Under the pieces are notes generated by a model. The model was given only the letters and a program-made list of their open reading frames with translations. It was not told the origin of the DNA and did not search any database. Of a stretch of DNA of 64,000 nucleotides, positions 33,369 to 58,326 are shown one piece after another (positions within the stretch are counted from its first letter, which is position 1; each line of letters opens with the position of its first letter). The DNA lies in the IMG/VR virus record IMGVR_UViG_3300047550_002841, positions 1 to 64,000 of that record, one strand, 5' to 3'. The position numbers and the translations under genes were made by a program. The DNA is from a virus.

Positions 33369-34034
33369 ATGGCACTCGGAAACAACTCGTCCTCAATTTA
33401 CTTGGACTTAAGAAACGGTAAAGTTTATCGTTACAGCAAAACAAACGAACCCGGCACAACAGCAATTCAAACTGCAAAGGGCGAAACACGGTACTTCTAC
33501 ATCTACGATTTTGTAGAGGGGCATGTCACAAACTTCTCAACTCGACAGGAGGACATTCAAGGAAAACTTAAACTGAAGTTTCAGATCCATTTGAAAGATG
33601 GCAATGATGACTACATAGTTAAGATGGATGTAGACTCATCTTACTTCAGAATGTTCTGCAGCGTAATCCCCAACATTGATTGGAATTTCCCTGTAAGATT
33701 AATACCACGGATCAAGGAAGAGCAAGGCGTAAAGAAGTCCTCTTTAATTACAGTAAACAATGGTAAGCCATGTAAGTTTGCTTTCACCAGAGAGAATCCT
33801 AACGGCAAGCCGGAAGTAACCTTTACTAAAAACAAAAAGGGTGAAGTAATTGACATTGATCGTGAGGAGGAGCAACAGTTCTTCTTCAACTTGATTGCAG
33901 ATGCCAAAACCAAATTGGTACATCCAGCTGTGGCACAACCTGCTCCTACAAGTGACCGTGTTGCAACAAACGTAAAGCCTGCTCAAAACTTTTCAGAGGA
34001 TGAAGCCTTTGAAGATGATGACTTACCATTTTAA
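33369..34034 (+). CDS. ssb: Single-stranded DNA-binding protein
   Basis: The start is placed at the ATG at 33369 (the longer frame opens with GTG and lacks support). The 221-aa protein has a beta-rich core (YFYIYDFVEGHV, KLKFQIHLKDG) compatible with an OB fold, and a disordered linker. Its acidic C-terminal tail ends DDDLPF, the tip by which bacterial and phage SSBs recruit partners. It is first in an operon with an exonuclease, 9 bases before the next gene, as expected for replication/recombination. The OB-fold call is by pattern; the tail is diagnostic. Confidence 0.75.
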   Translation: MALGNNSSSIYLDLRNGKVYRYSKTNEPGTTAIQTAKGETRYFYIYDFVEGHVTNFSTRQEDIQGKLKLKFQIHLKDGNDDYIVKMDVDSSYFRMFCSVIPNIDWNFPVRLIPRIKEEQGVKKSSLITVNNGKPCKFAFTRENPNGKPEVTFTKNKKGEVIDIDREEEQQFFFNLIADAKTKLVHPAVAQPAPTSDRVATNVKPAQNFSEDEAFEDDDLPF

Positions 34035-34043: not shown

Positions 34044-34382
34044 ATGAAAAGCTCATCAAAGATTGCTAACCCCATGTTAGCAGAAGCCATCAGCAATACC
34101 ATTGTCAAACCATCTAAACGCCCTCGTATTAAAAAGGATGAGGCTGCTCCTGAAAATGAAGTAGCCTCCCTCCCCGGGGGAGAAGCTCTACAGAAAGTAG
34201 AGAAGAAGGTTTTTGATCATATACAACATCATTACGACAAGGATGCTAAGATCCAGAAGCAATCGTGCATGAAAGCCGCAGCTTCCGTTTATAATCCACC
34301 TTTTGGCGAGGAACCAGAAATCATAGCCAACAAGGTAATTCAAATCGCAGAAAAACTATACCAATGGGTGAACTCAAACTAA
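34044..34382 (+). CDS. Hypothetical protein between SSB and exonuclease (112 aa)
   Basis: Not recognised. A basic, Pro/Lys-rich N-terminus (KPSKRPRIKKDE) is followed by a helical C-terminal half containing VFDHIQHHYDKDAK and VIQIAEKLYQW. It overlaps the exonuclease start by 19 bases, so the two are probably coupled in translation. It might be a recombination partner such as an annealing factor or exonuclease regulator, but nothing in the sequence proves that. Confidence 0.55.
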   Translation: MKSSSKIANPMLAEAISNTIVKPSKRPRIKKDEAAPENEVASLPGGEALQKVEKKVFDHIQHHYDKDAKIQKQSCMKAAASVYNPPFGEEPEIIANKVIQIAEKLYQWVNSN

Positions 34383-35365
34383 TCAACATCGACAAAGAAA
34401 CCAACTATGACGAATGGCTAGCATTTCGTCAAAATGGTCTCGGGGCTTCAGACATAGGCACACTTATGGGTCTGAACCCCTACAAATCTAAAATTGAACT
34501 ATTCTACCAAAAGGTAGGAGTCATACCCATCAAACAAGATGAAAACATTCCCATGTTCTATGGCAATCGTCTAGAAGACTTTGTAGCCAATATGTGGGAG
34601 TATTTCGATGGAGAAGATCCCGAATCTGTAATCACCAACTACAACGCAGGAAATAAACTAAAACACTGCAAACCAGTAACAGGTTACATCGTCAATAGCG
34701 ACTATCCCAATTTGTTCCTTTCTCCAGACCGCATCATCGTAAACAAAGAAACTGATAAACTAGTTTACGGTGGTCGCCTAATTGAAAAAAATTTCAAGGG
34801 CGTTCTAGAAGTTAAAACCATTAACGGTTTCGCATCCAAACAATGGGACGGTGGTATACCCCCATCCTACGTTACTCAACTCCAAACCTACCTCTTCGGT
34901 CTGAATCTTACCTACGGTGAAATTGTTCTCTTTGAAGATGGTCGTAAACTCTCCTCCATCCACATGGATCTTAACCCTACACTCAAACAACAAATCCTTG
35001 AAGCAATGGAAGACTTCTGGGAACGTGTAGATGCCGCTAAAGCTGATCCCGAAAACATTCAACTCTATGAACCTGAACCCGATGGTACAGAAGCATTTGA
35101 AAAGTTCCTCAACGACAAATACGCAAACTCAGAAATTAAAACCCTACAAGGTACTCCCGAACTTCTACAAATAGCTGTCACCCACAAAGTAATCGCAGCC
35201 GAAATAAAAGAACTAGAAGCCAAAAGTCGTGAATGCTCTAACCTCCTTAAAAATACCCTCAAAGAACATGAAGCACTAGACTTCGGTCAAAGCGGTAAAG
35301 TAATATGGCGTACAGACTCTAGAGGCATTAGATCACTCCGTAATAACATTATTATCAATGAATAA
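34364..35365 (+). CDS. YqaJ-type 5'-3' exonuclease (phage recombination)
   Basis: The 333-aa protein starts with DEWLAFRQNGLGASDIGTLM, the signature opening of YqaJ/lambda-exonuclease nucleases (R-x-x-GIGASD). It then shows LFLSPDRIIV (metal-binding Asp) and GVLEVKT (E-x-K catalytic pair), followed by the helical SYVTQLQTYLFGL segment. Such enzymes resect dsDNA ends for recombination with an annealing protein and SSB. SSB is two genes upstream, which fits. The C-terminal third is a helical extension. No annealase of known type is visible nearby; the 112-aa neighbour is the only candidate. Confidence 0.85.
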   Translation: MGELKLINIDKETNYDEWLAFRQNGLGASDIGTLMGLNPYKSKIELFYQKVGVIPIKQDENIPMFYGNRLEDFVANMWEYFDGEDPESVITNYNAGNKLKHCKPVTGYIVNSDYPNLFLSPDRIIVNKETDKLVYGGRLIEKNFKGVLEVKTINGFASKQWDGGIPPSYVTQLQTYLFGLNLTYGEIVLFEDGRKLSSIHMDLNPTLKQQILEAMEDFWERVDAAKADPENIQLYEPEPDGTEAFEKFLNDKYANSEIKTLQGTPELLQIAVTHKVIAAEIKELEAKSRECSNLLKNTLKEHEALDFGQSGKVIWRTDSRGIRSLRNNIIINE

Positions 35366-40235: not shown

Positions 40236-40262
40236 TCAAAGAAAAACTAAATCACAGAAATT

Positions 40263-40622: not shown

Positions 40623-40638
40623 CAAAAACCACTTAAAT

Positions 40639-40700: not shown

Positions 40701-40733
40701 AACTAAATTAATCCAATCAACAAAGAAAACACC

Positions 40734-41477: not shown

Positions 41478-41488
41478 TCACAACAACT

Positions 41489-41683: not shown

Positions 41684-41695
41684 TCACAGAAAAAC

Positions 41696-41884
41696 ATGAG
41701 CAATTTAGAAAAAGCATTCCGTTGGTTCCAAGAAAATGGTCATGAAGTGACCATGGATGACAACACTTTGTACATTGTAGTATGGAATACTACTTTGGAA
41801 GAGTCAATCGATGTACAAGTCAGCACTGCGGAAATTGACTACCGAGCAGAACTATGGCAAAGCCTACAAACCAATCAAAACTAA
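41696..41884 (+). CDS. Small protein, paralogue of previous gene (62 aa)
   Basis: A helix-strand-strand-helix pattern like the 64-aa neighbour, with the shared end (S/T)(Q/A)EI(E/D)(C/Y)RAELW. The leader TAATCACAGAAAAAC is repeated almost exactly before this gene and the next, which fits duplication of gene plus leader. Confidence 0.6.
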   Translation: MSNLEKAFRWFQENGHEVTMDDNTLYIVVWNTTLEESIDVQVSTAEIDYRAELWQSLQTNQN

Positions 41885-41897
41885 TCACAGAAAAACT

Positions 41898-42113
41898 ATG
41901 GACATTAATCAAAAATCATCAGCAGACCACATCATCGAGCATTTAATTGCCATCGATGTAGACGGAGAAACTATGCACTACATCATTGAAAAAACAGGTT
42001 TGAGTTATCAAATGCTTCATCAACTAATCATGTTGGCAGGTGACAATGAACTCAACTATGTTCTTTCAGAACGAAACGAAATTCACGACCAAGGAAAAAA
42101 CACACATTTATGA
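41898..42113 (+). CDS. Small hypothetical protein (71 aa)
   Basis: The start is at the ATG at 41898 after the leader TAATCACAGAAAAACT. A helical acidic protein: HIIEHLIAIDVDGETMHYII, then SYQMLHQLIM, suggestive of a small helical (possibly HTH-like) fold. It overlaps the next gene as ATGA. Confidence 0.5.
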   Translation: MDINQKSSADHIIEHLIAIDVDGETMHYIIEKTGLSYQMLHQLIMLAGDNELNYVLSERNEIHDQGKNTHL

Positions 42114-42412
42114 TAACAAAAACGAAAGCACTCGAAATTATTGACTCAGGCAAGTTCTTTTCTTGCAAGTTTGTAAAACAAAACGGAGAGGTTAGAACCC
42201 TCCGTGGCAGAACTGGTGTACGAAAGTACACTGACAAAAACGGCAATTGCCAAACCATTAAAAATGTTGGCATGAAATACAAGCCAAAAGACATGGGCTA
42301 TCGTGTGGTTTTGGATCTTGACAAGAGAGAATACCGCATGATAAACACCATCACAATCGTAGAATTCAACAACCAACCAATCGGAAACTTTAACCTATCA
42401 AAATCAATCTAA
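42110..42412 (+). CDS. Conserved small phage protein (100 aa)
   Basis: KFFSCKFVKQNGEVRTLRGR, then TGVRKYTDKNG and YRVVLDLDKREYRMINTITI: a beta-rich, SH3-like layout seen in a common phage family that carries 'F.K..G..R.m..R.GV.K' and 'YR.i....i'. Unknown function. It is coupled to the gene before by ATGA and is 3 bases from the next. Confidence 0.6.
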   Translation: MITKTKALEIIDSGKFFSCKFVKQNGEVRTLRGRTGVRKYTDKNGNCQTIKNVGMKYKPKDMGYRVVLDLDKREYRMINTITIVEFNNQPIGNFNLSKSI

Positions 42413-42415
42413 GAC

Positions 42416-42667
42416 ATGAAAGCACCTGCAGGACACTACCGCAAACTAATCAGCAATCCTCACATCAGAATTGCCTTTACTCACACTCCAATTTATGGCT
42501 GTATCAAAGTTAATAGTGATTCAGTCATAGAAGAACTTAAACAAAGTAACGATGAGTATGCTCAGTATTACATCGATGGTCTTACAAGTGGTAACATGGT
42601 TACCATTGTAGAACAATCAGTTGAACACTACTATCGTAACAACGGAGAACTTTTCTTTACAACTTAA
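42416..42667 (+). CDS. Small hypothetical protein (83 aa)
   Basis: An 83-aa protein: IRIAFTHTPIYGCIKVNSDS, then helix EELKQSNDEYAQYYIDGL and strand MVTIVEQSVEHYY. Not recognised. It is tightly placed, with 3-base gaps on both sides. Confidence 0.55.
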   Translation: MKAPAGHYRKLISNPHIRIAFTHTPIYGCIKVNSDSVIEELKQSNDEYAQYYIDGLTSGNMVTIVEQSVEHYYRNNGELFFTT

Positions 42668-42670
42668 TCT

Positions 42671-42937
42671 ATGATAAAAGTATATTTTCAATCAGAGATT
42701 GGTAGCCACTCAGAGTTAGTGGCTACCTTTAAATCAGACGAAATGTATCAACACTTCATCCCAATGCTTGAGCATCTTGCCTCTAAACAACGCTGTTTTG
42801 TCACTGAGACTATGTCTGAGTTTGACATTGCAGAAGTAATCCCCAATCAATTGACGCAGGTACTAACCTCACTTGAGGAAGGTGATTTCAATGGGGCAAC
42901 AATGGAACTTGAAGATTTAATCGACCGCCTAAAATAA
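42671..42937 (+). CDS. Small hypothetical protein (88 aa)
   Basis: An acidic 88-aa protein: MIKVYFQSEIGSHSELVATF, a helix (SDEMYQHFIPMLEHLASKQR) and a terminal helix (NGATMELEDLIDRL). Not recognised. A long perfect hairpin follows 6 bases after the stop. Confidence 0.55.
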   Translation: MIKVYFQSEIGSHSELVATFKSDEMYQHFIPMLEHLASKQRCFVTETMSEFDIAEVIPNQLTQVLTSLEEGDFNGATMELEDLIDRLK

Positions 42938-42943
42938 ACTAAA

Positions 42944-43009
42944 TTATCTATGTCATCTTTGAGTATACCCCATATTTATGGGGGGTATACTCAAAGAGAC
43001 AATAGATAA
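42944..43009. repeat. Long intergenic hairpin with perfect 16-bp stem
   Basis: TCTTTGAGTATACCCC (42956-42971) is perfectly complementary to GGGGTATACTCAAAGA (42982-42997), and outer TTATCTAT/ATAGATAA (42944-42951 and 43002-43009) extends it across a small internal loop. No T-run follows. It is the strongest of the four hairpins. Confidence 0.85.
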
Positions 43010-43023
43010 AACCAACAAAAATT

Positions 43024-43248
43024 ATGAACAAAACACAACAAATCGAACACAGAATGGCTATGATTTTGGATGACCTCCGAGTTATTAGACAACACATTTA
43101 CACCGAAAACCTCGGGGAATCTTTTGAAAAGCCTACAACGGTGGCTGATGAGTGTTGGACTCACTTCAACAACATCGAGATTGCTTGCGACTTAAACTCT
43201 GAAGAGAGTTTATCTTGGACATTGTTTGACCAATCAAAGAAAAAATAA
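43024..43248 (+). CDS. Small hypothetical protein (74 aa)
   Basis: An acidic helical 74-aa protein (QIEHRMAMILDDLRVIRQHI) with TTVADECWTHFNNIEIA. Not recognised. It ends 2 bases before the next gene. Confidence 0.55.
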   Translation: MNKTQQIEHRMAMILDDLRVIRQHIYTENLGESFEKPTTVADECWTHFNNIEIACDLNSEESLSWTLFDQSKKK

Positions 43249-43250
43249 TC

Positions 43251-43754
43251 ATGACACAATTAGATTTACAATCACTGGACCGCCATTACTTTTGGAATGA
43301 ACGACCCAAAGCAGTTCTACAAGATTTATCAAACAACTTTGATAAAGTTGAAGACATGACCTATCTCAATGACACTTGTCCCTCATTAGTAATCAACGAT
43401 TACATTCGTTTGTTTCTGCCCAATTCCATTTTTGACAATGGTGAAACAAGCACCAACAAATATGCGGTAGTCATTGACGAAACACACACCTTTGCAGGAT
43501 CTAAGTTTTACACCTTTGATGAATTACATCATGCCGTTGAAAAAATCGATGAGTTATTGGCTGAAAAACCATCACGACCACCCCTCTACGAAGTGGGTAT
43601 TGACAGGGGTGAAACAGGTACCGAAACTCTGGCTAAATTCCCTACCATTTACGATGCTGATACATTTATGTATGGCTACCAAATGGCAGATCCCAATGCA
43701 AAATTATTTATCGATACGATAACTTTTGATTATGTTTCAACTCTAAATAAATAA
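43251..43754 (+). CDS. Hypothetical accessory protein (167 aa)
   Basis: A mixed alpha/beta acidic 167-aa protein with a TFAGSKFYTFDELHHAVEKI phrase and LYEVGIDRG...AKFPTIYDADTF, which looks like two repeats of a strand-helix unit as in modified-base or small-ligand binding folds. No catalytic motif. Not recognised. Confidence 0.55.
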   Translation: MTQLDLQSLDRHYFWNERPKAVLQDLSNNFDKVEDMTYLNDTCPSLVINDYIRLFLPNSIFDNGETSTNKYAVVIDETHTFAGSKFYTFDELHHAVEKIDELLAEKPSRPPLYEVGIDRGETGTETLAKFPTIYDADTFMYGYQMADPNAKLFIDTITFDYVSTLNK

Positions 43755-43758
43755 CACT

Positions 43759-43965
43759 ATGAATTTACTTCACCTATCTACTCTACTTGACGATGGTACC
43801 ATCTATGAATCTGAAGCCGAAGCAAAACTTCGTTTTAAATACTTACTAAACCAAATCAGTAAGATTTATGACGAACTTGAAGAAAGTGGTGGAAGTGAAG
43901 AGCAGTATGCTCTTGGCGATGTAATGAATATGCTTTACCATTTAAGTAACTATGAAAAAATATAA
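43759..43965 (+). CDS. Small hypothetical protein (68 aa)
   Basis: An acidic helical 68-aa protein (EAEAKLRFKYLLNQISKIYDE). It overlaps the next gene by 14 bases. Not recognised. Confidence 0.5.
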   Translation: MNLLHLSTLLDDGTIYESEAEAKLRFKYLLNQISKIYDELEESGGSEEQYALGDVMNMLYHLSNYEKI

Positions 43966-44332
43966 GATATATCGAAACCTCCATCGTAACTGCTTCAGTG
44001 TACTAAAGTACAATCCTGAAAAGAAAGGCTATCGGTTGCACGAATACATTACACATGGTATCTTGCATGATGTTGTAGCAAAAGTTTCTCAGGCTGGTCG
44101 ACAAAGAGTTATCAAAGAAAAACAAAAGAATGTACATGCATATCTTCTCTGTGAAAAGTATGATAAACTCGATCGATTTTCCTTTGACTCATTGGATTTC
44201 CATGAAATCTCTTACAACCCTTACATACATGATTCCTTTGTAGTCGGTCTCACTAAAACCTTTACATCAGCCACCAAAGTCGGATTAACTATTGATAGTT
44301 ACACCGCCAAAGCATTACTCTTAGAAAAATAA
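43952..44332 (+). CDS. Hypothetical protein (126 aa)
   Basis: A basic 126-aa protein with two halves. The first is KIYRNLHRNCFSVLKYNPEK and HDVVAKVSQAGRQRVIKEKQ, a phrase typical of small phage proteins with 'R.rv..ekkK.VHA'. The second, VHAYLLCEKYDKLD ... ISYNPY, matches the same set. Unknown function, but it is likely a conserved phage family. Confidence 0.55.
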   Translation: MKKYKIYRNLHRNCFSVLKYNPEKKGYRLHEYITHGILHDVVAKVSQAGRQRVIKEKQKNVHAYLLCEKYDKLDRFSFDSLDFHEISYNPYIHDSFVVGLTKTFTSATKVGLTIDSYTAKALLLEK

Positions 44333-44410
44333 ATTTTGAAATTACACAAACATCCTTTTTATTTGCAAAACCAATCACCAAACTTTACACAACTTAAACC
44401 AAAACAAATT

Positions 44411-45370
44411 ATGAAAAACACAAACCAAATCAACAACGAATTCACAATGAACACACCTGCCTTGTCTATCGAAAACTTTGAGAAGACTATGAATCTTCTT
44501 GAAAGTACTGGTCTTAACTGGGAAGTTAAGAAAGAACAATTCTCACATCCTTCGGGATTGACTACTCCATTTTATGGTATCTTCCGATACGATCAAAATG
44601 CTAACACTCCAACCCAATGCTTGGGGTCTGTAAAAGAAAGGTATACACCTTTCCAAAACTGGGAACTTGCCGACACCATTGTTCGTGCTACTGAGGGAAT
44701 TGGTATTACTACCAACCGGGGCGGTCAACTTAACAACGGCAACAAGGTTTACCTTCAAGCACAATTGCCCGATGAATATGTGGGTAAGTCTGACATTAAA
44801 CGCTGGGTTACAGTCTTGAACTCACACGATGGTTCATCATCCATTGGCTTTGGTTCTACCAATACTGTGGTTGTATGTCAAAATACTTTCCACAGAGCCT
44901 TCAAAGAAACTGATAAGTTTCGCCACACTGCCAGTGCAAAAGAGCGTATTGAAATTGCCATCCGTCAGTTCCAAGACACGATCAATGCAGACAAGAATCT
45001 ATTCGATTCCTTCAAGCGTATGGCAGAACTGAAACCCGATGAGAGTTTGGTACAAGCGGTCATAAACAAAATGTTTAAGGTCGATGTAGTCAAGAACTCA
45101 CAAGAAGATATTTCTACTCGTAGAATGAATCAAATCCAATCGTTTGCACAAGCCTACAACATCGAGCGTGACCTTGAGGGTGACAATGTTTGGGGATTGT
45201 TCAATGCCGTAACTCGTTACACCAACCACATGGCTGCTCCTTCAGAGCAATCACGCAAGACTAACTATCTAATGACAGGTGGTGGTTACGACATTAACAA
45301 CACAGCTTATGATACAATCATGGGTTGGCTTGAGGAACGCACCGCTAAGACTGTGTTTTCGTTTTCATAA
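44411..45370 (+). CDS. DUF932 / phage-plasmid-like protein (319 aa)
   Basis: The start is at the ATG at 44411; a longer frame begins with TTG at 44336 and would lack a leader. Features of the DUF932 family (TIGR03299-like): LGSVKERYTPFQNWE, LQAQLPDEY, VTVLNSHDGSSS and VVCQNTFHRAF. The family occurs in phages and plasmids and is of unknown biochemical role, sometimes next to recombination genes. The length is normal for the family. It is followed by a strong terminator, so it probably ends the accessory operon. Confidence 0.8.
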   Translation: MKNTNQINNEFTMNTPALSIENFEKTMNLLESTGLNWEVKKEQFSHPSGLTTPFYGIFRYDQNANTPTQCLGSVKERYTPFQNWELADTIVRATEGIGITTNRGGQLNNGNKVYLQAQLPDEYVGKSDIKRWVTVLNSHDGSSSIGFGSTNTVVVCQNTFHRAFKETDKFRHTASAKERIEIAIRQFQDTINADKNLFDSFKRMAELKPDESLVQAVINKMFKVDVVKNSQEDISTRRMNQIQSFAQAYNIERDLEGDNVWGLFNAVTRYTNHMAAPSEQSRKTNYLMTGGGYDINNTAYDTIMGWLEERTAKTVFSFS

Positions 45371-45386
45371 TTATCAATTGTTGGTT

Positions 45387-45415
45387 GCCCCTCACCATTA
45401 GGTGGGGGGCTTTTT
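45387..45415 (+). terminator. Terminator after the DUF932 gene
   Basis: GCCCCTCACC (45387-45396) pairs with GGTGGGGGGC (45401-45410, one G-T pair) around ATTA, followed by TTTTT. Confidence 0.85.
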
Positions 45416-45427
45416 AAAAACACTACT

Positions 45428-45640
45428 ATGGCTAAAAAAATAAACAAAGAAGTATCATTAGAAAAATCTTTTAAGGACATGGATGACATGGAGCGTAGAA
45501 TCTTCTTGACTTATGTCTCCGAACACCTATTACATTACGACACCCATTTCAAAGAAATGGTAGATATACTAACTAAATGGGAAACCACAAACCCTATACC
45601 ATCAAGACTTGAATACACTATCCACGAAACACTCAACTAA
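45428..45640 (+). CDS. Small hypothetical protein (70 aa)
   Basis: A charged helical 70-aa protein (LEKSFKDMDDMERRIFLTYV, HFKEMVDILTKW). Not recognised. It is 4 bases from the caspase-like gene downstream, so the two may be coexpressed. Confidence 0.55.
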   Translation: MAKKINKEVSLEKSFKDMDDMERRIFLTYVSEHLLHYDTHFKEMVDILTKWETTNPIPSRLEYTIHETLN

Positions 45641-45644
45641 GATC

Positions 45645-46286
45645 ATGAAAAAACAAAAACGCACACTAGTAATTCATCCTAAGGATGTAACAACCGATTT
45701 CTTAATTCCTATTTACAAATCACTGAATCCAAATACTACCACCATCCTCACTACTTACGAAGAAGTAGAAAAGAATTCACTTGCCACCCAAATCAAAAAG
45801 CATGATCGCATTATCATGCTGGGTCACGGATTCCCCGGGGGTCTGTGGGGTTTCGATCGACTGCTGATAAACGACTCAAACGCAGAATTACTTCGTAACA
45901 AAGAATTAGTTGGTATTTGGTGCCATGCAAATCAGTTCTTTGAAAAGCATGGTTTGCTCGGAGTCTACTCCGGCATGATAATATCAGAGCCTCTAGAAGC
46001 TATATTCTATAGTGTTCCTTACACCGACAGCATGATTCATGAGTCAAACACTTTGTTTACTAAAGCCGTAACTCAGTCAATTACTTCGACTACTCCAATT
46101 GAAGTCTTCCGTAGTATGTACCGAAGTGAAAGCAATCCAGTTATGATTTACAATCAAGACAATTTCTTTCATGCTTATGAAGTACATCAATTAGAAGACA
46201 ATGAGCAAGCAATGGTTGACTACAATGCGATGGAGGAGGAATGGGAAATGGATAACTATAACGAAATAGCACATGAGCAACAATAA
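45645..46286 (+). CDS. Caspase-like (clan CD) His-Cys protein candidate (213 aa)
   Basis: The start is at the ATG at 45645, 4 bases after the 70-aa gene. KRTLVIHPKD opens a Rossmann-like alternation. H61 lies in IIMLGHGFPGGLWG and C93 in LVGIWCHANQF, each after a hydrophobic strand. That order (strand-HG ... strand-C) is the layout of caspase/CHAT-type peptidases. A similar group of bacterial and phage proteins has the 'IWC.AD.FVE..GL.G.Y.GM.ISE' phrase; here IWCHANQFFEKHGLLGVYSG. The catalytic idea is inference; H61 and C93 are seen. Its last residues (HEQQ) are read from the MSNNKQ cassette of the next gene. Confidence 0.5.
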   Translation: MKKQKRTLVIHPKDVTTDFLIPIYKSLNPNTTTILTTYEEVEKNSLATQIKKHDRIIMLGHGFPGGLWGFDRLLINDSNAELLRNKELVGIWCHANQFFEKHGLLGVYSGMIISEPLEAIFYSVPYTDSMIHESNTLFTKAVTQSITSTTPIEVFRSMYRSESNPVMIYNQDNFFHAYEVHQLEDNEQAMVDYNAMEEEWEMDNYNEIAHEQQ

Positions 46287-46533
46287 ACAAAGTATGAAAC
46301 TATACACAGAAGAACAAGTAAAGCATATGTTAATTGGATTAATTGGTTCAGCAAAAACTGTAGATGATTTTTTGCATAGGTATTATACCCCCATCGAACT
46401 ACCAACCCCCATCGAACTACCTAATGATGATGAGATACATAAACAGGCAATTAATTACTCGGGTTTTGACAATGAATTTAAGGCAGGCGCAAAATGGATG
46501 CGTGATAAAATACAAGGAGGTAACAATGAGTAA
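46273..46533 (+). CDS. MSNNKQ-array protein 1 (86 aa)
   Basis: Begins MSNNKQS, then a second Met (MKLYTEEQVKHMLIG), as if the cassette was placed in front of an older start at 46294. The body has a tandem PIELP repeat (residues about 42-52, from a 15-base direct repeat near 46391) and ends KWMRDKIQGGNNE. The GGNNE tail and stop come from the next cassette. Function unknown; EEQV..M helices resemble common phage small proteins. Confidence 0.6.
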   Translation: MSNNKQSMKLYTEEQVKHMLIGLIGSAKTVDDFLHRYYTPIELPTPIELPNDDEIHKQAINYSGFDNEFKAGAKWMRDKIQGGNNE

Positions 46534-46756
46534 TAAACAAATAATAGCAACACGCAAATGGATAGTTGAACACATCACATATAGTGATGGAACAACTGCA
46601 ATTAGCAGAACAAACGATGGATTTAATTCTTTTGAATTAATGGGTATACTTGAATTATCTAAAGACGACATAATTAATCAAATAAAAGGAAATGTCAAGC
46701 CCGAAGTAGTTAAAAGAAAAGTAATTTTAGAGAAAAAGTCAAACCAAAAACAATGA
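46526..46756 (+). CDS. MSNNKQ-array protein 2 (76 aa)
   Basis: The start at the ATG at 46526 is supported by AAGGAGG 6 bases upstream; the frame is open further 5' but without a ribosome site. MSNKQIIATRKWIVEHITYS and a Lys-rich end (KRKVILEKKSNQKQ). Its stop overlaps the start of the next cassette (ATGA). Unknown function. Confidence 0.55.
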   Translation: MSNKQIIATRKWIVEHITYSDGTTAISRTNDGFNSFELMGILELSKDDIINQIKGNVKPEVVKRKVILEKKSNQKQ

Positions 46757-46839
46757 GCAACAATAAACAAAGTATGCCAATTTCAGTTAAAATATTTTTA
46801 TTTTTTTTATTAATTGCTTACATACACAGAAAGAGTTAA
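46753..46839 (+). CDS. MSNNKQ-array membrane peptide (28 aa)
   Basis: MSNNKQSM is followed by PISVKIFLFFLLIAYIHRKS: one hydrophobic helix with a basic tail. It repeats the 'MSNNKQ-x-M' join of protein 1. It is coupled to protein 2 by ATGA. No GGAGG precedes it, so expression may depend on coupling. Confidence 0.45.
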   Translation: MSNNKQSMPISVKIFLFFLLIAYIHRKS

Positions 46840-46841
46840 TT

Positions 46842-46997
46842 ATGATTAAATACACAGAAAGAGAAATAGAACACGAAAGAAAATATCACTATTACAAGGG
46901 TTATTCTAAAGGTGTATTGACTACATTTATTTTAATGAGTTTATATTATATTTTTATTGTAGTATTTGATTATTATTTAAATGGAGGTAACAAATGA
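46842..46997 (+). CDS. Small membrane protein in the array (51 aa)
   Basis: The only member without the cassette N-terminus. MIKYTEREIEHERKYHYYKG, then a hydrophobic helix (VLTTFILMSLYYIFIVVF) and DYYLNGGNK. GGNK is read from the next cassette (GGAGGTAACAAATG). Its start follows TACACAGAAAGAG, which recurs inside the gene at about 46851. Confidence 0.45.
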   Translation: MIKYTEREIEHERKYHYYKGYSKGVLTTFILMSLYYIFIVVFDYYLNGGNK

Positions 46998-47329
46998 GCA
47001 ACAATAAACAAAACGAAAACAATAACGCTAAACATCAATTTAGCAACACAGAACCTTTGACACACGCACAGAAAATCGCTGTTGCAAATAAAATGAGCAA
47101 CAATAAACAAGGTAGTGTAAAGTGGTTATTTGAACAAGTGTGTAATTTAGATTGGAAAAATATTCAAGGAGAAAAAAAGTTGGAAATTCTTGAACAAGCC
47201 AAAGCAATGCACAAGGAGGAAGTGACATCATTTACTGCAGATTGGAGTATTCAGTATAAATATGAAAATGGCAAAAACATTAATCAATTTTACTACGAAA
47301 CATTTGGAGGTAACAATGAGCAACAATAA
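46994..47329 (+). CDS. MSNNKQ-array protein 3, contains a second internal MSNNKQ (111 aa)
   Basis: Begins MSNNKQNENNNAKHQF, and at residue 34 (47093) a second MSNNKQ occurs in frame, without a GGAGG. The part after it (SVKWLFEQVCNLDWKNI ... ILEQAKAMHKEEV ... QFYYETFGGNNEQQ) is homologous to protein 4, with EQAK.M.KE and YY.ETFGG. This family of 'TAVEW...EQAKEMEK...YYNETF' proteins is common in Bacteroidota phages, function unknown. The N-terminal 33 residues look like an inserted or fused fragment. Confidence 0.65.
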   Translation: MSNNKQNENNNAKHQFSNTEPLTHAQKIAVANKMSNNKQGSVKWLFEQVCNLDWKNIQGEKKLEILEQAKAMHKEEVTSFTADWSIQYKYENGKNINQFYYETFGGNNEQQ

Positions 47330-47546
47330 ACAACAAACGGCAGTGGAGTGGTTTGCGGAACGCATACAAAGTGATAAAATATTCAACTTTGAAAAAGTTT
47401 TAGAACAAGCCAAAGAAATGGAGAAGGAAAGAATTGAAACTGCATACAACAAAGGAACAGTTCATGGAATTGATTATCCTGAAAGTACACTACCAATAAC
47501 TGGTGAACAATACTACAACGAAACCTACGGAGGAGGTGAGCAATGA
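47316..47546 (+). CDS. MSNNKQ-array protein 4, EQAKEMEKE family (76 aa)
   Basis: MSNNKQQTAVEWFAERIQSD, VLEQAKEMEKERIETAYNKG and YYNETYGGGEQ. The start at 47316 has GGAGG 6 bases upstream. The protein is a member of the same common phage family as proteins 3 and 5, and its tail GGGEQ is part of the next junction. Confidence 0.65.
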   Translation: MSNNKQQTAVEWFAERIQSDKIFNFEKVLEQAKEMEKERIETAYNKGTVHGIDYPESTLPITGEQYYNETYGGGEQ

Positions 47547-47770
47547 CAAACAATAAACAACAAACGGAAGCCGATGTTTTAGAATTGGCGATGAAACTTT
47601 ATCCATTTAGTAATTCTGAAAGGAATGCCTTTATTGATGGGTATAACAAAGCAAATGAAATAGACAAGGAAGAAATAGTCAAAGCATTTGACCGTGGGCG
47701 AGTTTGGAATATGTCTTGGGATGGAGAATCTTATTATGAGGAAATTATAATTAAAGGTAATAATGAATAA
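47543..47770 (+). CDS. MSNNKQ-array protein 5 (75 aa)
   Basis: MTNNKQQTEADVLELAMKLY ... EIDKEEIVKAFDRGRVWNMS ... ESYYEEIIIKGNNE: the same family pattern (helix, DKEEI.KAFD, Y.E). The cassette is a variant (GGAGGTGAGCAATG). It ends KGNNE, a decayed version of GGNNE. Confidence 0.6.
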   Translation: MTNNKQQTEADVLELAMKLYPFSNSERNAFIDGYNKANEIDKEEIVKAFDRGRVWNMSWDGESYYEEIIIKGNNE

Positions 47771-47783
47771 TTCGGAGGTAACA

Positions 47784-48062
47784 ATGAGCAACAATAAACA
47801 AATAAAAAACGGAGATGTATTTGACATAGGTCAAACAGTAAATGGCGTAAGCAGGTTTCTTTGGTTCAATAATGCATGGTATTACTTTGAAGAAAGGTTA
47901 TCAAGGGAATACGAATACGACCAAGATGAATTAACAAAAACTGTACAAAACTGGAATGACCTTGAAGAAATTACATTTATTAAAAACATATTTGATACAA
48001 CAAATATAAAAATATTAGCAGTTAATCACTTGCCGTTAGGTAGCACTTTAGAAGGGAGGTAA
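47784..48062 (+). CDS. MSNNKQ-array protein 6 (92 aa)
   Basis: The start at the ATG at 47784 has GGAGG 6 bases before it. MSNNKQIKNGDVFDIGQTVN, then FLWFNNAWYYFEERLSREYE: a beta-rich start as in small SH3-like phage proteins, and a mostly beta end. Not recognised. Confidence 0.55.
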   Translation: MSNNKQIKNGDVFDIGQTVNGVSRFLWFNNAWYYFEERLSREYEYDQDELTKTVQNWNDLEEITFIKNIFDTTNIKILAVNHLPLGSTLEGR

Positions 48063-48064
48063 CA

Positions 48065-48259
48065 ATGAGCAACAATAAACAAATCATGAAAAACTTTATT
48101 ATCGTACTCTCAACAATCCTTAGCGGATTGCTCTACGGATGGTGCATTGTGCACTATCCCATCACTGCACAGATCATCGCTGGAGGCATGGGCTTGTCCT
48201 TTCTCTTCGTGATAATGATCGCCTTTTACTCACTGGAAAATAAAAATGAAAATGACTAA
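48065..48259 (+). CDS. MSNNKQ-array two-helix membrane protein (64 aa)
   Basis: MSNNKQIM, then KNFIIVLSTILSGLLYGW and an IIAGGMGLSFLFVIMIAF helix: two hydrophobic segments and a charged tail (LENKNEND). The second Met (48086) would be a natural start without the cassette, again the MSNNKQ-x-M join. Confidence 0.55.
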   Translation: MSNNKQIMKNFIIVLSTILSGLLYGWCIVHYPITAQIIAGGMGLSFLFVIMIAFYSLENKNEND

Positions 48260-48818
48260 TAACAATCAACAACTTGACCTATTCGATGGTATCGAGAACA
48301 AAGATTTCTTGGAATACCACAAGACCAATCCACACCTTTACGATGCATTTAAAGCAGTAGCTTTTGATGCAATGAAAATGGGCTTTAAAACTTATGGTGC
48401 CAACGGCATTTTTGAAATCATTCGCTGGAAGCGTGCTGAGCGTGGTGACGGTGAGTTCAAAATCAACAACAACTTCGCTCCGCTTTTTGCTCGACTCTTT
48501 GCCAATGAGTTCCCTCAGTATTCTAGTTTTTTCAGATACCGCAAATCAAAGTTTTCGGAGTATCTCAAATCACTACCCATGCAAGAAAAACGCATGCATG
48601 AGTTAGTATTCTTCTATGAAAACGCCTCGTTTGTTTTGACCATAGCTCCCACTGAAGATGATTGGTGGACTACCGTAAATGTAACTGAAAATGGGCGAAC
48701 TTTTTTCTTTGATGTCCACTATTGTGAAGACTACAACGAAATCTGCGTTTATCCTTACAACGGCAAACACACCACAGAAAGTTATATCAAAGCAATTTAT
48801 ACTCAAAAGATCATATGA
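48252..48818 (+). CDS. Conserved phage protein with winged-helix-like N-terminus (188 aa)
   Basis: The start is chosen at 48252 (MTNNNQQLDLFDG), a decayed cassette; an ATG two codons earlier (48246) is possible. FKAVAFDAMKMGFKTYGANG and IFEIIRWKRAERGDGEFKIN, then NNFAPLFARLFANEFPQYSSFF, is the core of a family common in phages and prophages ('f.A..i...g...y....I.e.iRw......FKiNN....Y.R.f....P....FF'). From about residue 110 a second, beta-rich domain follows (VLTIAPTEDDWWTTVNV), which that family normally lacks. Function unknown. Confidence 0.6.
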   Translation: MTNNNQQLDLFDGIENKDFLEYHKTNPHLYDAFKAVAFDAMKMGFKTYGANGIFEIIRWKRAERGDGEFKINNNFAPLFARLFANEFPQYSSFFRYRKSKFSEYLKSLPMQEKRMHELVFFYENASFVLTIAPTEDDWWTTVNVTENGRTFFFDVHYCEDYNEICVYPYNGKHTTESYIKAIYTQKII

Positions 48819-48931
48819 ACATAGCATATCGGTTTGCCATTCCTACAGATTACTGCCTTTATCAAGGCAATGTAACACTACCAATACGAATTAAATATGT
48901 TTACAATTTTGCGGTATATCTTCAGGAATAA
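48815..48931 (+). CDS. Very small hypothetical protein (38 aa)
   Basis: A 38-residue frame, coupled to the gene before by a 4-base ATGA-type overlap. It is basic/aromatic (MNIAYRFAIPTDYCLYQGNV) and overlaps the following membrane gene in another frame. A TGCCTT/AAGGCA hairpin (48854-48869) lies in it. Weak evidence of being a gene beyond coupling. Confidence 0.3.
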   Translation: MNIAYRFAIPTDYCLYQGNVTLPIRIKYVYNFAVYLQE

Positions 48932-49028
48932 ACCTCACAAGGAGTTTCTTGTCCTTGAGACTGCTATGATTATCTATTACAGTCTTTGGGCAATAGGCAT
49001 CTATGTGCTATACAGATTAATTCTATGA
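48897..49028 (+). CDS. Small membrane protein (43 aa)
   Basis: MFTILRYIFRNKPHKEF, then a hydrophobic helix (ETAMIIYYSLWAIGIYVLYR). Its stop overlaps the RHH-like gene start as ATGA. Single-pass membrane peptide with a basic N-terminus; role unknown. Confidence 0.4.
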   Translation: MFTILRYIFRNKPHKEFLVLETAMIIYYSLWAIGIYVLYRLIL

Positions 49029-49357
49029 CTCAACTTAAGATTAGAAAAAAGAATGTTGAAGTAATCAACATTGTCTTGAGTAGTGAGCAGTACACAAAGT
49101 TAAAGAAGCTGGCTGATGAGAATGGTTTTTCATCGCCAGCTAATTTAATTGATGATATCGTTCACTCTTATTTTAATAAGCACCGAACTAGAATTCGCAA
49201 AACCGTGGAGGAGTACGAGAAATCCATTAAAATGCCAGTGCAGATATCACAGAATAACTGGCACATGCTATCACGCTACTCTGAATCTACCAAAATATCA
49301 AAGGGAACCTTTATACATTTAATACTACGAGAGATAATTAAAAAAATACCAAAATGA
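49025..49357 (+). CDS. Ribbon-helix-helix-like DNA-binding protein candidate (110 aa)
   Basis: The start is at 49025 (ATGA overlap). Two similar segments follow the strand-helix-helix layout: VINIVLSSEQYTKLKKLADE ... SPANLIDDIVHSYF (residues about 12-50), and MPVQISQNNWHMLSRYSEST ... SKGTFIHLILREII (about 70-108). Tandem RHH units in one chain would bind DNA as a pseudo-dimer. Its 3' end overlaps the serine recombinase by 4 bases, so it may be the recombinase's regulator or directionality partner. The RHH call is by pattern. Confidence 0.5.
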   Translation: MTQLKIRKKNVEVINIVLSSEQYTKLKKLADENGFSSPANLIDDIVHSYFNKHRTRIRKTVEEYEKSIKMPVQISQNNWHMLSRYSESTKISKGTFIHLILREIIKKIPK

Positions 49358-50043
49358 AACGAGCCGCTTTTTATACGCGTGTGAGCCACGACAATCAAGT
49401 CGAAGATGGATCATCATTAGAAAACCAAAAAGATCGCATAGAAGCGTTCTGTAAGCTAAATAACTACTCTATAGTAGCATCATTCTCTGACCCCGGAGTC
49501 TCTGGTCGTAAGTTTGAAAACAGACCAGAGTTTATGAAGATGATGAAACTCGTAGAGAAAAAACAAATCGATGTAATTGTAGTCTATAGTCTATCTCGTT
49601 TCGGTAGAAACCTAAAGGATACTTTGAAATGGATATCTTTTCTAGAAAGTAAGGGCGTTTCGTTCTACACATTAGACTTTCAAATAGACACATCTACTTC
49701 TCATGGTAAACTTATGCTTCAGATGATGGGAGCCTTTGCTGAATTTGAAAGCAACCAGCGTGGGGAATTGATTTCATCTGTGATGAAGTACCTGAAAAAA
49801 GAACAGAAAGTTTATTGCGGTCCTACACCTTTAGGGTTTCACAAGAAAAATGGATCTTTGATTGTGGATGAAGAAGAAATGAAAATAGTTAAAACTATCT
49901 TCAGCTGGAAGAATACTATGCCACACTCTACCATTGCTAGACTTTGCAATGATATGGGGTTTCAGACCAAGAAAGGCAAGAAGTTCTATCACACCACCAT
50001 TGATAAAATCGTAAACAATAATATCTATGAACAACATCTTTGA
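49354..50043 (+). CDS. Serine recombinase (resolvase/integrase family, short)
   Basis: KRAAFYTRVSHDNQ contains the catalytic Ser11, and VIVVYSLSRFGRNLKDTLKW the conserved Arg motif. FAEFESNQRGELI is the E-helix region of the resolvase domain. A short C-terminal recombinase DNA-binding part (GFHKKNGSLIVDEEEM ... SIARLCNDMG-like, here STIARLCNDMGF) follows. At 229 aa it lacks the zinc ribbon and coiled coil of large serine integrases. It could integrate, invert or resolve multimers. No tyrosine integrase is present in the window. Confidence 0.85.
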   Translation: MKRAAFYTRVSHDNQVEDGSSLENQKDRIEAFCKLNNYSIVASFSDPGVSGRKFENRPEFMKMMKLVEKKQIDVIVVYSLSRFGRNLKDTLKWISFLESKGVSFYTLDFQIDTSTSHGKLMLQMMGAFAEFESNQRGELISSVMKYLKKEQKVYCGPTPLGFHKKNGSLIVDEEEMKIVKTIFSWKNTMPHSTIARLCNDMGFQTKKGKKFYHTTIDKIVNNNIYEQHL

Positions 50044-50233
50044 GATTTATGATGCTCGTATTGTACAAGGAGTTACAAACGAGAAACGAGATTATCGTTT
50101 GTATGTAAATCAAACCCTAATCGAAAAGCATAGCACCATGGAAGAGGCTATCAAACAACTATATCAAATTCAAGAACAGATCAATGAAAAAAGAAACAAT
50201 AAGAATATATTCAACTTCCGGTTTTGTTTTTGA
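50027..50233 (+). CDS. Small hypothetical protein (68 aa)
   Basis: A charged 68-aa protein (NNIFEIYDARIVQGVTNEKR ... TMEEAIKQLYQIQEQINEKR) overlapping the recombinase stop by 17 bases and the next start by 50. Helical and acidic/basic mixed. Not recognised. Confidence 0.45.
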   Translation: MNNIFEIYDARIVQGVTNEKRDYRLYVNQTLIEKHSTMEEAIKQLYQIQEQINEKRNNKNIFNFRFCF

Positions 50234-50480
50234 TATCAGTTACCAATGGGTCATGGAGCACATGGGTATAAAAGACCATAGCAAAACAAAAACTCTCGAG
50301 GTAATTGAATATCTTCGCAGACTCTCTTGGTATGAAATCCTACCAGTTCTTAAACTAGTAGCAGTTATTGAGGAAGACTGTGCCGATACTTTGAATGCTT
50401 GTGTATTCGATGTTGTCGAAGACCCATTTAATTATCCCATCACCAAAAAGAAAGCACTGCAATTAAAACTAAACTCATGA
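50184..50480 (+). CDS. Hypothetical replication-region protein (98 aa)
   Basis: A 98-aa protein beginning MKKETIRIYSTSGF, then helices (KTLEVIEYLRRLSWYEILPV). It overlaps the following gene by 4 bases. Not recognised; grouped with replication genes by position. Confidence 0.5.
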   Translation: MKKETIRIYSTSGFVFDISYQWVMEHMGIKDHSKTKTLEVIEYLRRLSWYEILPVLKLVAVIEEDCADTLNACVFDVVEDPFNYPITKKKALQLKLNS

Positions 50481-50839
50481 ATGACGATCAAATTTTACTC
50501 TACACAATCGCTGAAATTTTACTAGAAGTAAACTTATCAGAAGAAAAGAAACAACGCATACGAGATGCTATGTGCGGTGTATACGCACGCACGCCTGAAC
50601 CGCAACCCAAAACCAAAAGGTTTGAAGTACCAGCAATCTCCGATGTTAAAGCTCACATGGACACCCTACAGGTGGCTAATGCCGAAAAACACTCAGCTGA
50701 GTTTTGGCATTTTTATGAGTCCAAGGGATGGATGGTTGGCAAAAATAAAATGAAAAACTGGAAGTCAGCAGCCAGTAGATGGTGTATTGAGTTACCAAGA
50801 ACCTCAGGTGATAATCAAAAGAAAAGAATTGTGGTATGA
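50477..50839 (+). CDS. Replication accessory protein candidate (120 aa)
   Basis: The C-terminus EFWHFYESKGWMVGKNKMKN, then WKSAASRW is the phrase found at the end of many phage replication/primosome proteins in Bacteroidota phages ('FY..NGW.VGK..MK.WKAA.r.W'), often next to helicase or primase genes. The N-terminus is helical. It overlaps the primase-helicase start by 4 bases (ATGA), in keeping with a loader or partner role. Confidence 0.6.
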   Translation: MNDDQILLYTIAEILLEVNLSEEKKQRIRDAMCGVYARTPEPQPKTKRFEVPAISDVKAHMDTLQVANAEKHSAEFWHFYESKGWMVGKNKMKNWKSAASRWCIELPRTSGDNQKKRIVV

Positions 50840-52536
50840 GTTATGCATCGGAGTTCAGCAGATTAAATATTGATTTAAAAGGTAAGTTCTCGGGGGTTCT
50901 GAAAACCCAGTGCCCAAGATGTTCATCTACTAGAAAGAAAACTGGAGATCCATCGTTGTCAGTGAACATCGATGAAGGGTTGTATAAATGCCACCACTGT
51001 CAGTGGAAAGGAACTGTGGTCGAGCAAAAGTACAACCGCCCCGAAAAGGTTGGAGATAAAGTCGATGAAAGCATTTACAAGTACTTCTTGGACCGTGGCT
51101 TAAGCCAAGCAACAGTCGACCATTTCAAAGTCACTCAGAGCATTGAGAGGATGGCTGATGGCAAACAGCACAAAGTAATTAACTTTAATTATTTTGATGG
51201 TTCCATTCTAGTGAATGTCAAGTACAAGAGTAGAGACAAACAATTTAAAATGGTACAGGGAGCAAAGAAGATCCCTTACAATCTCAATTCCATTAAAGAA
51301 TCGCCACAAATTATTATTTGCGAAGGTGAGGAAGAGGCTATGGTATGGCATGAAGCAGGCTATCCTTTTGCGGTCAGCTGTCCTGCTGGAGCCAATGTTG
51401 GTAACAACAACTTAGAATGGCTCGACAACACTTACAGTTTCTTTGAGAACAAAAAGATTTATCTAGCCACTGACAACGACACGCCCGGGAAGAAACTGAA
51501 GGAGGATTTGTCAAGACGGTTTGATGCAGACAATGTTTACATCATTGAGTTTGGTGAGGTTAAAGATGCCAACGATTATTTAAAAGCGTACGGCAAGGAA
51601 TCTTTGATTCTTATATTTGAAAATGCAAAACCACTACCCATCCCAGAGATTTCTACTGTTGACAATTTCATGGATGAACTCATCAGTATATACGACAATG
51701 GTTACCCAGTCGGAGACTCTGTTGGTTATCCTGAGTTTGATGATCTTTTAACTTGGAAACGAGGTCAGTTTGTAGTTGTATCGGGAGTCCCCGGCTCAGG
51801 AAAATCTACATTTGTAGATCAAGTATGCATTCGTTTAGCCTTGCGAAAAAACTGGAAGTTTGCAATGTTTTCCCCTGAAAACGACAATGTCCTCAAAAGT
51901 ATACGCATGGCTGAACAAATTGTGGGCAAGCCTATCGCAGGTGACATACAACGCAGGATGTCTAAGGACATATACATGCGTGCTCTCACCTATATAAATC
52001 GTCACTTTTCTTTCTATGATACTGCCAACTTGGATGATTTTAAAATCGACAACTTATTACGCATTGCTAAATCTTTGATTAGACAAAAAGGTGTTGATGC
52101 TATCATTCTTGATCCATTCAATTACATTGAGCAAGACTCGAATAATGATATCATGAATGAAAAGATTGGTCGCATGCTGGTGAAAATGAAAAAGTTTGCC
52201 TTGACTAACAAAGTTCTAGTTTTACTAGTGGCTCACCCAAAGAAGATGCAAAAGAATAAAAACAATGGGCAGTATGAAATACCACGACTCTATGACATTA
52301 GCGGATCGCACCACTTCTTTAATGTTACTGACAATGGATTTGTAGTACATCGTGACTTTGACACTGGACTTGTAGATGTCTATGTGCAGAAAGTTAAGCA
52401 TTACTTCATGGGCAAACTTGGCTACGCAACTTTTGATTTTGATCCGCAGACAGGCAGATACAAAGAACAAACACAGTATTGGGAAAACGAATTAGAAAAC
52501 AATGATCAAGCCGAATTCTTTACTGGCCTTACTTAA
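50836..52536 (+). CDS. Primase-helicase (T7 gp4-like)
   Basis: A zinc ribbon (CPRC at about 23-26, CHHC at about 53-56) is followed by a TOPRIM-type primase core with IIICEGEEEAM (about 159-169) and LATDNDTPG (about 216-224). A RecA/DnaB-like helicase domain follows with Walker A GVPGSGKST (about 317-325), Walker B IILDPFNY (about 426-433) and a downstream VLVLLVAHPKK (sensor-like). The 566-aa length and order match T7 gp4 and relatives, which unwind and prime the lagging strand. Coupled to the preceding gene by overlap; DNA polymerase is one gene downstream. Confidence 0.9.
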   Translation: MSYASEFSRLNIDLKGKFSGVLKTQCPRCSSTRKKTGDPSLSVNIDEGLYKCHHCQWKGTVVEQKYNRPEKVGDKVDESIYKYFLDRGLSQATVDHFKVTQSIERMADGKQHKVINFNYFDGSILVNVKYKSRDKQFKMVQGAKKIPYNLNSIKESPQIIICEGEEEAMVWHEAGYPFAVSCPAGANVGNNNLEWLDNTYSFFENKKIYLATDNDTPGKKLKEDLSRRFDADNVYIIEFGEVKDANDYLKAYGKESLILIFENAKPLPIPEISTVDNFMDELISIYDNGYPVGDSVGYPEFDDLLTWKRGQFVVVSGVPGSGKSTFVDQVCIRLALRKNWKFAMFSPENDNVLKSIRMAEQIVGKPIAGDIQRRMSKDIYMRALTYINRHFSFYDTANLDDFKIDNLLRIAKSLIRQKGVDAIILDPFNYIEQDSNNDIMNEKIGRMLVKMKKFALTNKVLVLLVAHPKKMQKNKNNGQYEIPRLYDISGSHHFFNVTDNGFVVHRDFDTGLVDVYVQKVKHYFMGKLGYATFDFDPQTGRYKEQTQYWENELENNDQAEFFTGLT

Positions 52537-52810
52537 ACACCTAGTAAAGCAGAAATATGACATAGATCACATAAATGTGAATCCTGTTCTGATGCCAAAG
52601 ATTCAAGTACTCTTTCAGCGTATCAAAGCGTACGAGGTTCGCTCCTTCAAAGACTATGTGATTATTTATATTGACACAAAACCAATCGTCATAAAAAGCT
52701 ATGGCTGGTTGCGTGCTCATGGTTCTTATGAACCCATCTTGATAGATCCGGTGACCCGAACTATTTATACCCAAATGATAATTAAATACAATGAGAACAG
52801 TAGTTTATGA
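52502..52810 (+). CDS. Small hypothetical protein between primase-helicase and polymerase (102 aa)
   Basis: A basic 102-aa protein (LLALLKHLVKQKYDID, KAYEVRSFKDYVIIYIDTKP) overlapping the helicase stop by 35 bases and the polymerase start by 20. Mixed strand and helix; not recognised. The double overlap argues it is a real gene in the replication operon. Confidence 0.5.
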   Translation: MIKPNSLLALLKHLVKQKYDIDHINVNPVLMPKIQVLFQRIKAYEVRSFKDYVIIYIDTKPIVIKSYGWLRAHGSYEPILIDPVTRTIYTQMIIKYNENSSL

Positions 52811-54644: not shown

Positions 54645-54647
54645 ATT

Positions 54648-56970: not shown

Positions 56971-56973
56971 GTG

Positions 56974-58313: not shown

Positions 58314-58326
58314 GTTTTTAAGTGAA

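Follow-up and report, generated by a model that had tools for sequence, protein, structure and literature searches.

A coding joint between small phage genes as a probable site of homologous recombination

It is an open question how phages come by their many small uncharacterised genes and lose them again, and the locus described here is one at which the points of acquisition can be read. It lies in a stretch of 64,000 nucleotides (the window), positions 1 to 64,000 of the IMG/VR record IMGVR_UViG_3300047550_002841, which make up nearly all of this 64.9-kb record of an uncultured virus. Between 46273 and 48259, nine small open reading frames (ORFs) stand head to tail, and eight of them begin with a short common sequence, here called the joint, or with a shortened variant of it (46526). 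The joint core is AACAATGAGCAACAATAAACAA (22 nt), often with GGAGGT in front, and in its own frame it encodes MSNNKQ or MTNNKQ. The ORF at 46842 starts without a joint, and the gene at 46994, besides its own joint, contains the internal start of a second module. We suggest, with good though not complete confidence, that the best account of this arrangement is homologous recombination within the joint, which would serve as a translation-neutral adaptor.

Seven exact copies of AGCAACAATAAACAA (at 46276, 46756, 46997, 47096, 47319, 47787, and 48068) and one with two mismatches (47546) lie within 1.8 kb, against 0.77 expected in the whole window. Eight copies were reached in none of 100 shuffles of the window (shuffle mean 0.77), and outside the array there is no further copy in the 64.9-kb record, even allowing one mismatch. 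The original prediction, made from the letters of the window, held that at least eight small genes share one identical cassette; the sharing stands, but identity is too strong a description. Within the array GGAGGTAACAATG is exact at 46516, 47306, 47774, and 48055 only, with GGAGGTAACAAATG at 46983, and the full 28-mer (GGAGGTAACAATG followed by AGCAACAATAAACAA) is present in three copies (47306, 47774, and 48055), not eight. The remaining copies lack a Shine-Dalgarno (SD) sequence, have a short indel, or have ACA replacing AGC, and at 46516 GGAGGTAACAATG runs on as AGTAATAAACAA, which is 3 nt shorter. The copies in the window are:

46273..46290, + strand: joint copy 1 (ATGAGCAACAATAAACAA), without SD; overlaps the end of the gene at 45645-46286 (..AHEQQ-stop, with the TAA within the joint)
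46516..46540, + strand: joint variant GGAGGTAACAATGAGTAATAAACAA, encoding MSNKQ (one codon shorter)
46753..46770, + strand: joint copy without SD; the TGA of the joint ends the upstream gene
46983..47011, + strand: joint copy bearing one extra A (GGAGGTAACAAATGAGCAACAATAAACAA)
47093..47110, + strand: internal in-frame joint copy without SD; opens a second module (MSNNKQGSVKWLFEQV..) to which a short leader ORF is fused
47306..47333, + strand: full 28-nt joint; the upstream gene ends GGNNEQQ-stop within it
47532..47560, + strand: MTNNKQ-type joint (GGAGGTGAGCAATGACAAACAATAAACAA, ATG at 47543)
47774..47801, + strand: full 28-nt joint
48055..48082, + strand: full 28-nt joint; its first base is the start of the right-hand identity block shared with loci L125 and L016 (see below)

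Gene gain and loss precisely at joints had been set as the test of the original prediction, and it is seen at joint-associated edges in two near-identical strains. The record IMGVR_UViG_3300021962_000937 (loci L016, L125, and L145) is 99.85-100% identical to the window over 40226-46317 and 99.8% identical over 48055-60363, and in it 252 bp take the place of 1,737 bp of the window array. The right edge of the replacement in L125 is the first GGAGG base at 48055; the left edge lies 27 nt beyond a joint (+44), inside the common MSNNKQSMKLYTEEQ start, and a 94%-identical copy of the replacement gene also sits in the array of L027, a contig that otherwise differs. The other strain, L126, is 99.99% identical to the window from 47511 on and has a different EQAKEMEKE gene before that point, the switch falling in a conserved TACTACAACGAAACCTACGGAGG stretch 32 nt upstream of the ATG of the 47543 joint. 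Queries with a flanking gene or a body gene also retrieved both strains, and their turnover is therefore independent of joint-based selection. Further instances come from modules that end at joints and are 95-100% identical between contigs differing elsewhere, and from a jumbo phage (L011, a 232-kb record) with a joint-bounded tandem duplication (98.45% over 903 bp), in which both left edges lie 4 nt before a joint ATG and of which the sister L033 has a single copy. The relatives do not keep one gene order either: in more distant ones, with DNA identity of about 70% and capsid proteins 86-90% identical, no array separates the flank genes (L130, L135, and L146), or it is found beyond the right flank gene (L148).

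The ends of near-identical blocks were then analysed over 142 loci. Near joints lie 349 of 1,483 block ends, compared to 59 under uniform placement (six times as many), although these counts are not fully independent. Joints break more often than the other gene starts of the same arrays, taken as control, at every identity threshold. After deduplication, in which near-identical boundaries were collapsed, the odds ratios for joints versus other gene starts were 4.5 (90% identity), 3.7 (95%), and 7.5 (98%), with broken starts numbering 79/128 versus 61/202 at 95% and 55/93 versus 22/136 at 98%. Blocks shared on the upstream side run through the joint and end mostly at +12 to +35 relative to the ATG, and those shared on the downstream side begin mostly at -14 to 0; such positions, on either side of the joint, are as predicted by crossovers that fall within some 25 nt common to both partners.

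Judged by its codons, the joint is inherited DNA and not a convergent peptide, because synonymous codons are identical across sites. Of 56 MTNNKQ starts, 53 share one 18-mer, where about 3% is predicted by window codon usage, and 37/50 MSNNKQ starts share one 18-nt string (about 1% predicted); these counts use sites outside the searched 22-mer, i.e., sites not selected by the search pattern. Conservation falls off directly after the CAA codon. In viral contigs, 29 stretches hold an exact 28-mer and 115 an exact 22-mer core, ahead of different genes, and the joint-bearing contigs were drawn from about 99 metagenomes. Among bacterial assemblies, two contigs of Bacteroidia metagenome-assembled genomes (MAGs) alone have the joint. 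It is not a random sequence of unrelated genomes, as isolate phages and plasmids gave matches at chance level only (E about 1 or worse). The window primase-helicase is closest (about 33%) to faecal phage records and to Riemerella, Tenacibaculum, and Flavobacterium phages; on account of these relatives and of the two Bacteroidia MAG contigs, the host of the window phage is likely to belong to the Bacteroidota.

The window capsid protein has no detectable relative in 11 joint-bearing records of 35 to 295 kb, one of which (L089) has the window primase-helicase; three true relatives have both capsid and primase-helicase. Despite the lack of a detectable common capsid, L089 and L013 carry array segments 92-96% identical to the window, which indicates that the module pool crosses phage lineages. 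The 180 distinct joint-started bodies (median 81 aa) form 34 families under a loose rule, the largest with 119 of the 180 by single linkage and many others small. We note that one joint-started body, shared by a 295-kb phage record and a second contig (about 95% identical in DNA), has a HELG motif, possibly of an ImmA/IrrE-type peptidase (L033 1018, L108 2876). Three other joint-started proteins (L028 1680, L023 830, and L081 4580) have an inner lipoprotein-like signal peptide (MKKLILATLLIGMISGC..), and two of the three retain an inner ATG behind the joint.

What makes the joint a plausible meeting point for unrelated genes is the way in which it is read. Its +1 frame stops immediately (TGA at +1) and its +2 frame gives EQQ-stop (TAA at +11); at 184 of 240 joints, the upstream gene ends at one of these stops. 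With stops in both non-coding frames, the joint therefore closes most incoming genes while opening the next. The C-terminus GGNNEQQ, predicted for upstream genes in general, belongs to the gene ending at 47329, which is its sole instance in the window; the other upstream genes end in GGNNE, GGGEQ, KGNNE, or GGNK, via the other in-joint stop or just before the joint. The upstream frame is in register with the joint ATG in 15 of the 142 distinct joints that have a single open upstream frame, mostly through one repeated leader (..KKELKELMEKDKT-MSNNKQ..) that is fused to, or truncated by, the following module. The internal in-frame copy at 47093, which had been correctly recognised, is such a leader fusion, and homologues of its module begin with their own joint in L053 and L098. 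The seven window joints folded no better than shuffles and have no notable RNA structure, and no inverted symmetry was seen in the joint on inspection. GGAGG is present in 78/240 joints, and 111/240 have no recognisable SD. Bacteroidota start sites reportedly rely on upstream adenines and low structure, not on SD (PMC6847099), and such A-rich, SD-independent initiation is consistent with a joint that would function whether GGAGG is present or not. We infer that the joints start translation in vivo. It is curious that about one-third of joints have GGAGG although Bacteroidota ribosomes reportedly do not use SD.

The array genes and their flanks, to which the following paragraphs refer, are:

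46273..46533, + strand: array gene, 86 aa, MSNNKQ-S-MKLYTEEQ family; in strain L125 the body is replaced after 15 codons
46526..46756, + strand: array gene, 76 aa (MSNKQIIATRKW..)
46753..46839, + strand: array gene, 28-aa hydrophobic peptide MSNNKQ-S-MPISVKIF..
46842..46997, + strand: small hydrophobic ORF, 51 aa, start without joint
46994..47329, + strand: array gene, 111 aa, made up of a leader, an internal joint, and an EQAKAMHKE-family body
47316..47546, + strand: array gene, 76 aa, EQAKEMEKE family
47543..47770, + strand: array gene, 75 aa (MTNNKQQTEADVLELAMKLYPFSNSERNAF..), with a related N-half in L204
47784..48062, + strand: array gene of 92 aa; its body (IKNGDVFDIGQTVNG..TFIKNIF) has different N- and C-termini in other contigs
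48065..48259, + strand: array gene, 64-aa membrane peptide, older start at the ATG at 48086
45645..46286, + strand: left flank gene, C-terminal tail EEEWEMDNYNE, which occurs on array genes of L148 and L113
48252..48818, + strand: right flank gene, phrog_13625, whose N-terminus MTNNNQQ resembles a decayed joint

The termini that these proteins share are, on the evidence of their distribution, recombination scars. The translations at 46273, 46753, and 48065 read MSNNKQ-x-M, as predicted, and for 48065 the suggestion that the cassette was placed ahead of an older start is borne out by about 38 relatives that have no joint and start at the inner ATG (48086); joint-ATC-ATG is present in the window clade only. 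In L127, an apparent decayed joint stands ahead of the 48065-gene copy, which starts at the inner ATG. The body of the 47784 gene (IKNGDVFD..TFIKNIF) has a joint in the window, L162, L163, and L167 and short starts of its own in L164, L165, L166, and L168; its C-termini (QQ, EQ, NETFGGNNEQQ, NETYGGNK, or QHTEVTNERT) are mostly dictated by the following joint. These swapped termini were found in loci retrieved by the body protein, not by the joint. The tail EEEWEMDNYNE of the left flank gene (window 46200-46286) ends different array genes in L148 (9094-9315) and L113 (3819-4130).

Shuffling also takes place at a second homology block inside genes, which goes beyond the joint-only picture of the original prediction. 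The commonest family is laid out as joint, QAK(E/A)M(E/H)KE segment, and YYNETYGG end. Eight N-halves occur in at least two distinct proteins, seven of them with different C-halves. The C-half RIETAYNKGTVHGIDYPESTLPITGEQYYNET (window 47403-47552) is joined to seven different N-halves, that of the window 47316 gene included, and occurs in contigs L020, L028, L089, L092, L106, L199, and L204; in many contigs DNA identity begins near 47403, at the QAKEMEKE codons. The AlphaFold model of the EQAKEMEKE family (pLDDT 75) has three helices and no PDB match, and the low confidence of its ends suggests that the joint-coded ends probably lie outside the folded part.

Window positions 46752-47000 are 89% identical to the MAG contig L123. 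Pfam and PHROG searches of the small genes gave nothing significant except phrog_13625 for the right flank gene, and the description of the 47784 gene as SH3-like is thus unsupported by any Pfam or PHROG match. No isolate relatives of the array DNA or of two array proteins were found among 50,697 phages, and an Rfam search gave no match. We infer that the array bodies are dispensable host-interaction genes. Elsewhere in the window, a reading frame at 61150-62373 (- strand) has PAS and HATPase (histidine kinase-like) domains, which is unusual for a phage.

Explanations other than homologous recombination within the joint have to be considered. The presence of one N-terminus on many different proteins, with most bodies in one broad family (119/180, single linkage), might reflect selection for the MSNNKQ peptide as a targeting or stability tag, the array having grown by duplication and divergence with joints that do not recombine. 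We regard this as very unlikely because the synonymous positions are fixed and because the 47784 and 48065 bodies occur both with and without MSNNKQ; behind the apparent decayed joint of L127 the gene begins at its inner ATG, many bodies fall in other small families, and the block edges sit at joints. Illegitimate or replication-slippage joining at gene boundaries, where selection keeps the in-register products and joints survive rather than recombine, would agree with the frequent breakage of non-joint gene starts and with two-frame stops that make most junctions tolerable. It would not lead one to expect edges that bracket the joint with identity common through it from both sides, as internal crossovers predict, or half-gene exchange at another shared sequence, and the joint-bounded tandem duplication resembles unequal crossing-over; we consider it unlikely. 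Since all the data are assemblies, and most window joints have no independent whole-junction copy, short repeats may have linked unrelated fragments during metagenome assembly. Such an artefact is extremely unlikely: of 264 junctions, 96 reappear in other metagenomes (at least 90% identity over 160 nt), sequence outside the array is 99.8-100% identical among the window, L125, and L126, and shared modules have point differences of their own.

A site-specific recombinase using the joint as crossover site, in the manner of an integron or shufflon, deserves separate mention, as a candidate is encoded 1.1 kb downstream of the array:

49354..50043, + strand: serine recombinase (Resolvase PF00239 and Recombinase PF07508), considered as agent and disfavoured

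Its homologues often lie 0.8-2.3 kb from a joint, but they are found in only 15 of 118 joint loci (the loci being partial). For this reason, and because the edges spread over tens of nucleotides (in L125 the left edge is at +44 and in L126 the switch is at -32, both outside the 28-mer) and half-genes shuffle at a different sequence, we judge its involvement highly improbable. The joint copies are in direct orientation and have neither visible inverted symmetry nor a notable fold. Serine invertase or resolvase shuffling was accordingly set aside, there being no fixed crossover point. An integron cassette array was set aside as well, since folding of the seven window joints gave no attC-like site; no tyrosine integrase (IntI) was found among the ORFs searched (not every ORF), and these yielded a single recombinase, that of the serine type at 49354.

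Homologous recombination within the joint would work as follows. The joint would supply a start codon in an A-rich, unstructured initiation context, together with stops in both other frames, so that a crossover inside it would close most upstream genes and open the downstream gene, whichever genes meet; an upstream gene arriving in the start-codon frame would be fused to the downstream gene. Joint-joint crossovers, within an array or between co-infecting phages, would swap, duplicate, or delete genes and would leave joint-derived tails on the proteins (MSNNKQ... and ...GGNNE(QQ)), and the second homology block, QAKEMEKE, would let half-genes of the commonest family recombine. The agent is probably a set of phage enzymes, an exonuclease and annealing pathway; phage annealing recombinases (Red/RecT) tolerate short and diverged homology (PMC3945230). 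Two window genes are candidates:

34364..35365, + strand: RecE/YqaJ-like recombination exonuclease, candidate recombination enzyme
33369..34034, + strand: possible single-strand DNA-binding protein adjoining the exonuclease, suggested by its acidic C-terminus (..EDDDLPF)

The exonuclease scan gave one relative only; the 33369-34034 protein has no family match, and its AlphaFold model is unusable (pLDDT 37).

Several points weigh against recombination within the joint. At 22-45 nt the joint is short for classical recombination. A search of the other joint loci (partial sequences) did not turn up the exonuclease, and an annealing protein was likewise not identified. Breaks are also common at gene starts without a joint (16-30% at 95-98% identity); a joint therefore raises the rate of turnover, which proceeds elsewhere as well. 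The scarcity of upstream genes in frame with the ATG may stem from selection against fusions and not from the joint. Most loci were fetched by the joint, which biases edges towards joints, and those fetched by flank or body are far fewer. The contigs are metagenome assemblies, and recurrence in another metagenome was seen for no more than 96 of the 264 junctions and two of the window's own eight.

Known systems resemble the joint in part. Arbiol et al. reportedly described, in 2010 in Genome Biol Evol, mobile regulatory cassettes (PeSLs) of T4-type phages, which are said to be non-coding intergenic units of early promoter and stem-loop that mediate modular shuffling. Like the joint, they are short repeats between small accessory genes that bring expression signals and undergo homology-mediated shuffling; unlike them, the joint has no stable fold, codes for both neighbours, and supplies a start and two-frame stops. 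Integrons hold head-to-tail gene-cassette arrays and use a tyrosine integrase and folded attC sites. They share with the present array head-to-tail small genes and high turnover at a repeated element, but the joint is coding, and neither a folded attC-like site nor a tyrosine integrase was found. Lambdoid phages exchange modules at boundary or linker sequences. In that exchange, and with the relaxed Red/RecT enzymes, phage recombinases exchange modules via short or diverged homology (PMC3945230), as proposed here; the joint differs from the lambdoid case in being reused many times per array and in phages without a detectable common capsid. In cluster K mycobacteriophages, a 13-bp sequence (SAS) lies upstream of starts, about half of the copies having 17-bp inverted repeats (ESAS), and the authors raise a possible link with translation initiation but leave the role open (PMC3203893). 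There, too, one short sequence stands at the starts of many unrelated small genes and is conserved in related phages. SAS is a non-coding upstream sequence (GGGATAGGAGCCC), whereas the joint differs in sequence, reaches 18 nt into the gene, terminates the one upstream, and comes with evidence of recombination. Near-identical blocks ending abruptly at shared short sequences, the mark of broad homology-mediated phage shuffling, are present here. To our knowledge, none of the compared systems is coding on both sides, supplies a start and two-frame stops, is reused within one array, and is shared by phages that have no detectable capsid in common; the comparison rests on open-licence literature, and earlier descriptions may exist.

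The homology-driven shuffling of small genes that was originally proposed is thus supported by the turnover at joints; it may be a dedicated system or a recombinogenic by-product. That the joint has been selected as a universal adaptor, part of an evolved combinatorial gene-assembly system common to unrelated Bacteroidota phages, is a tentative idea that we think has less than an even chance of being right. If it is true, such an adaptor would let genes and half-genes be swapped without disturbing translation and so create a communal pool of ready-to-use accessory proteins. One pool of genes and half-genes moves between phages of about 35 to 295 kb that have no detectable homology to the window capsid. 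For annotation, the finding is a warning against concluding common function from shared joint-derived termini. Direct searches for the joint are possible, its modules can be counted and its crossovers placed within tens of nucleotides, and it may serve as a marker by which new accessory proteins, perhaps directed against the host, could be discovered.

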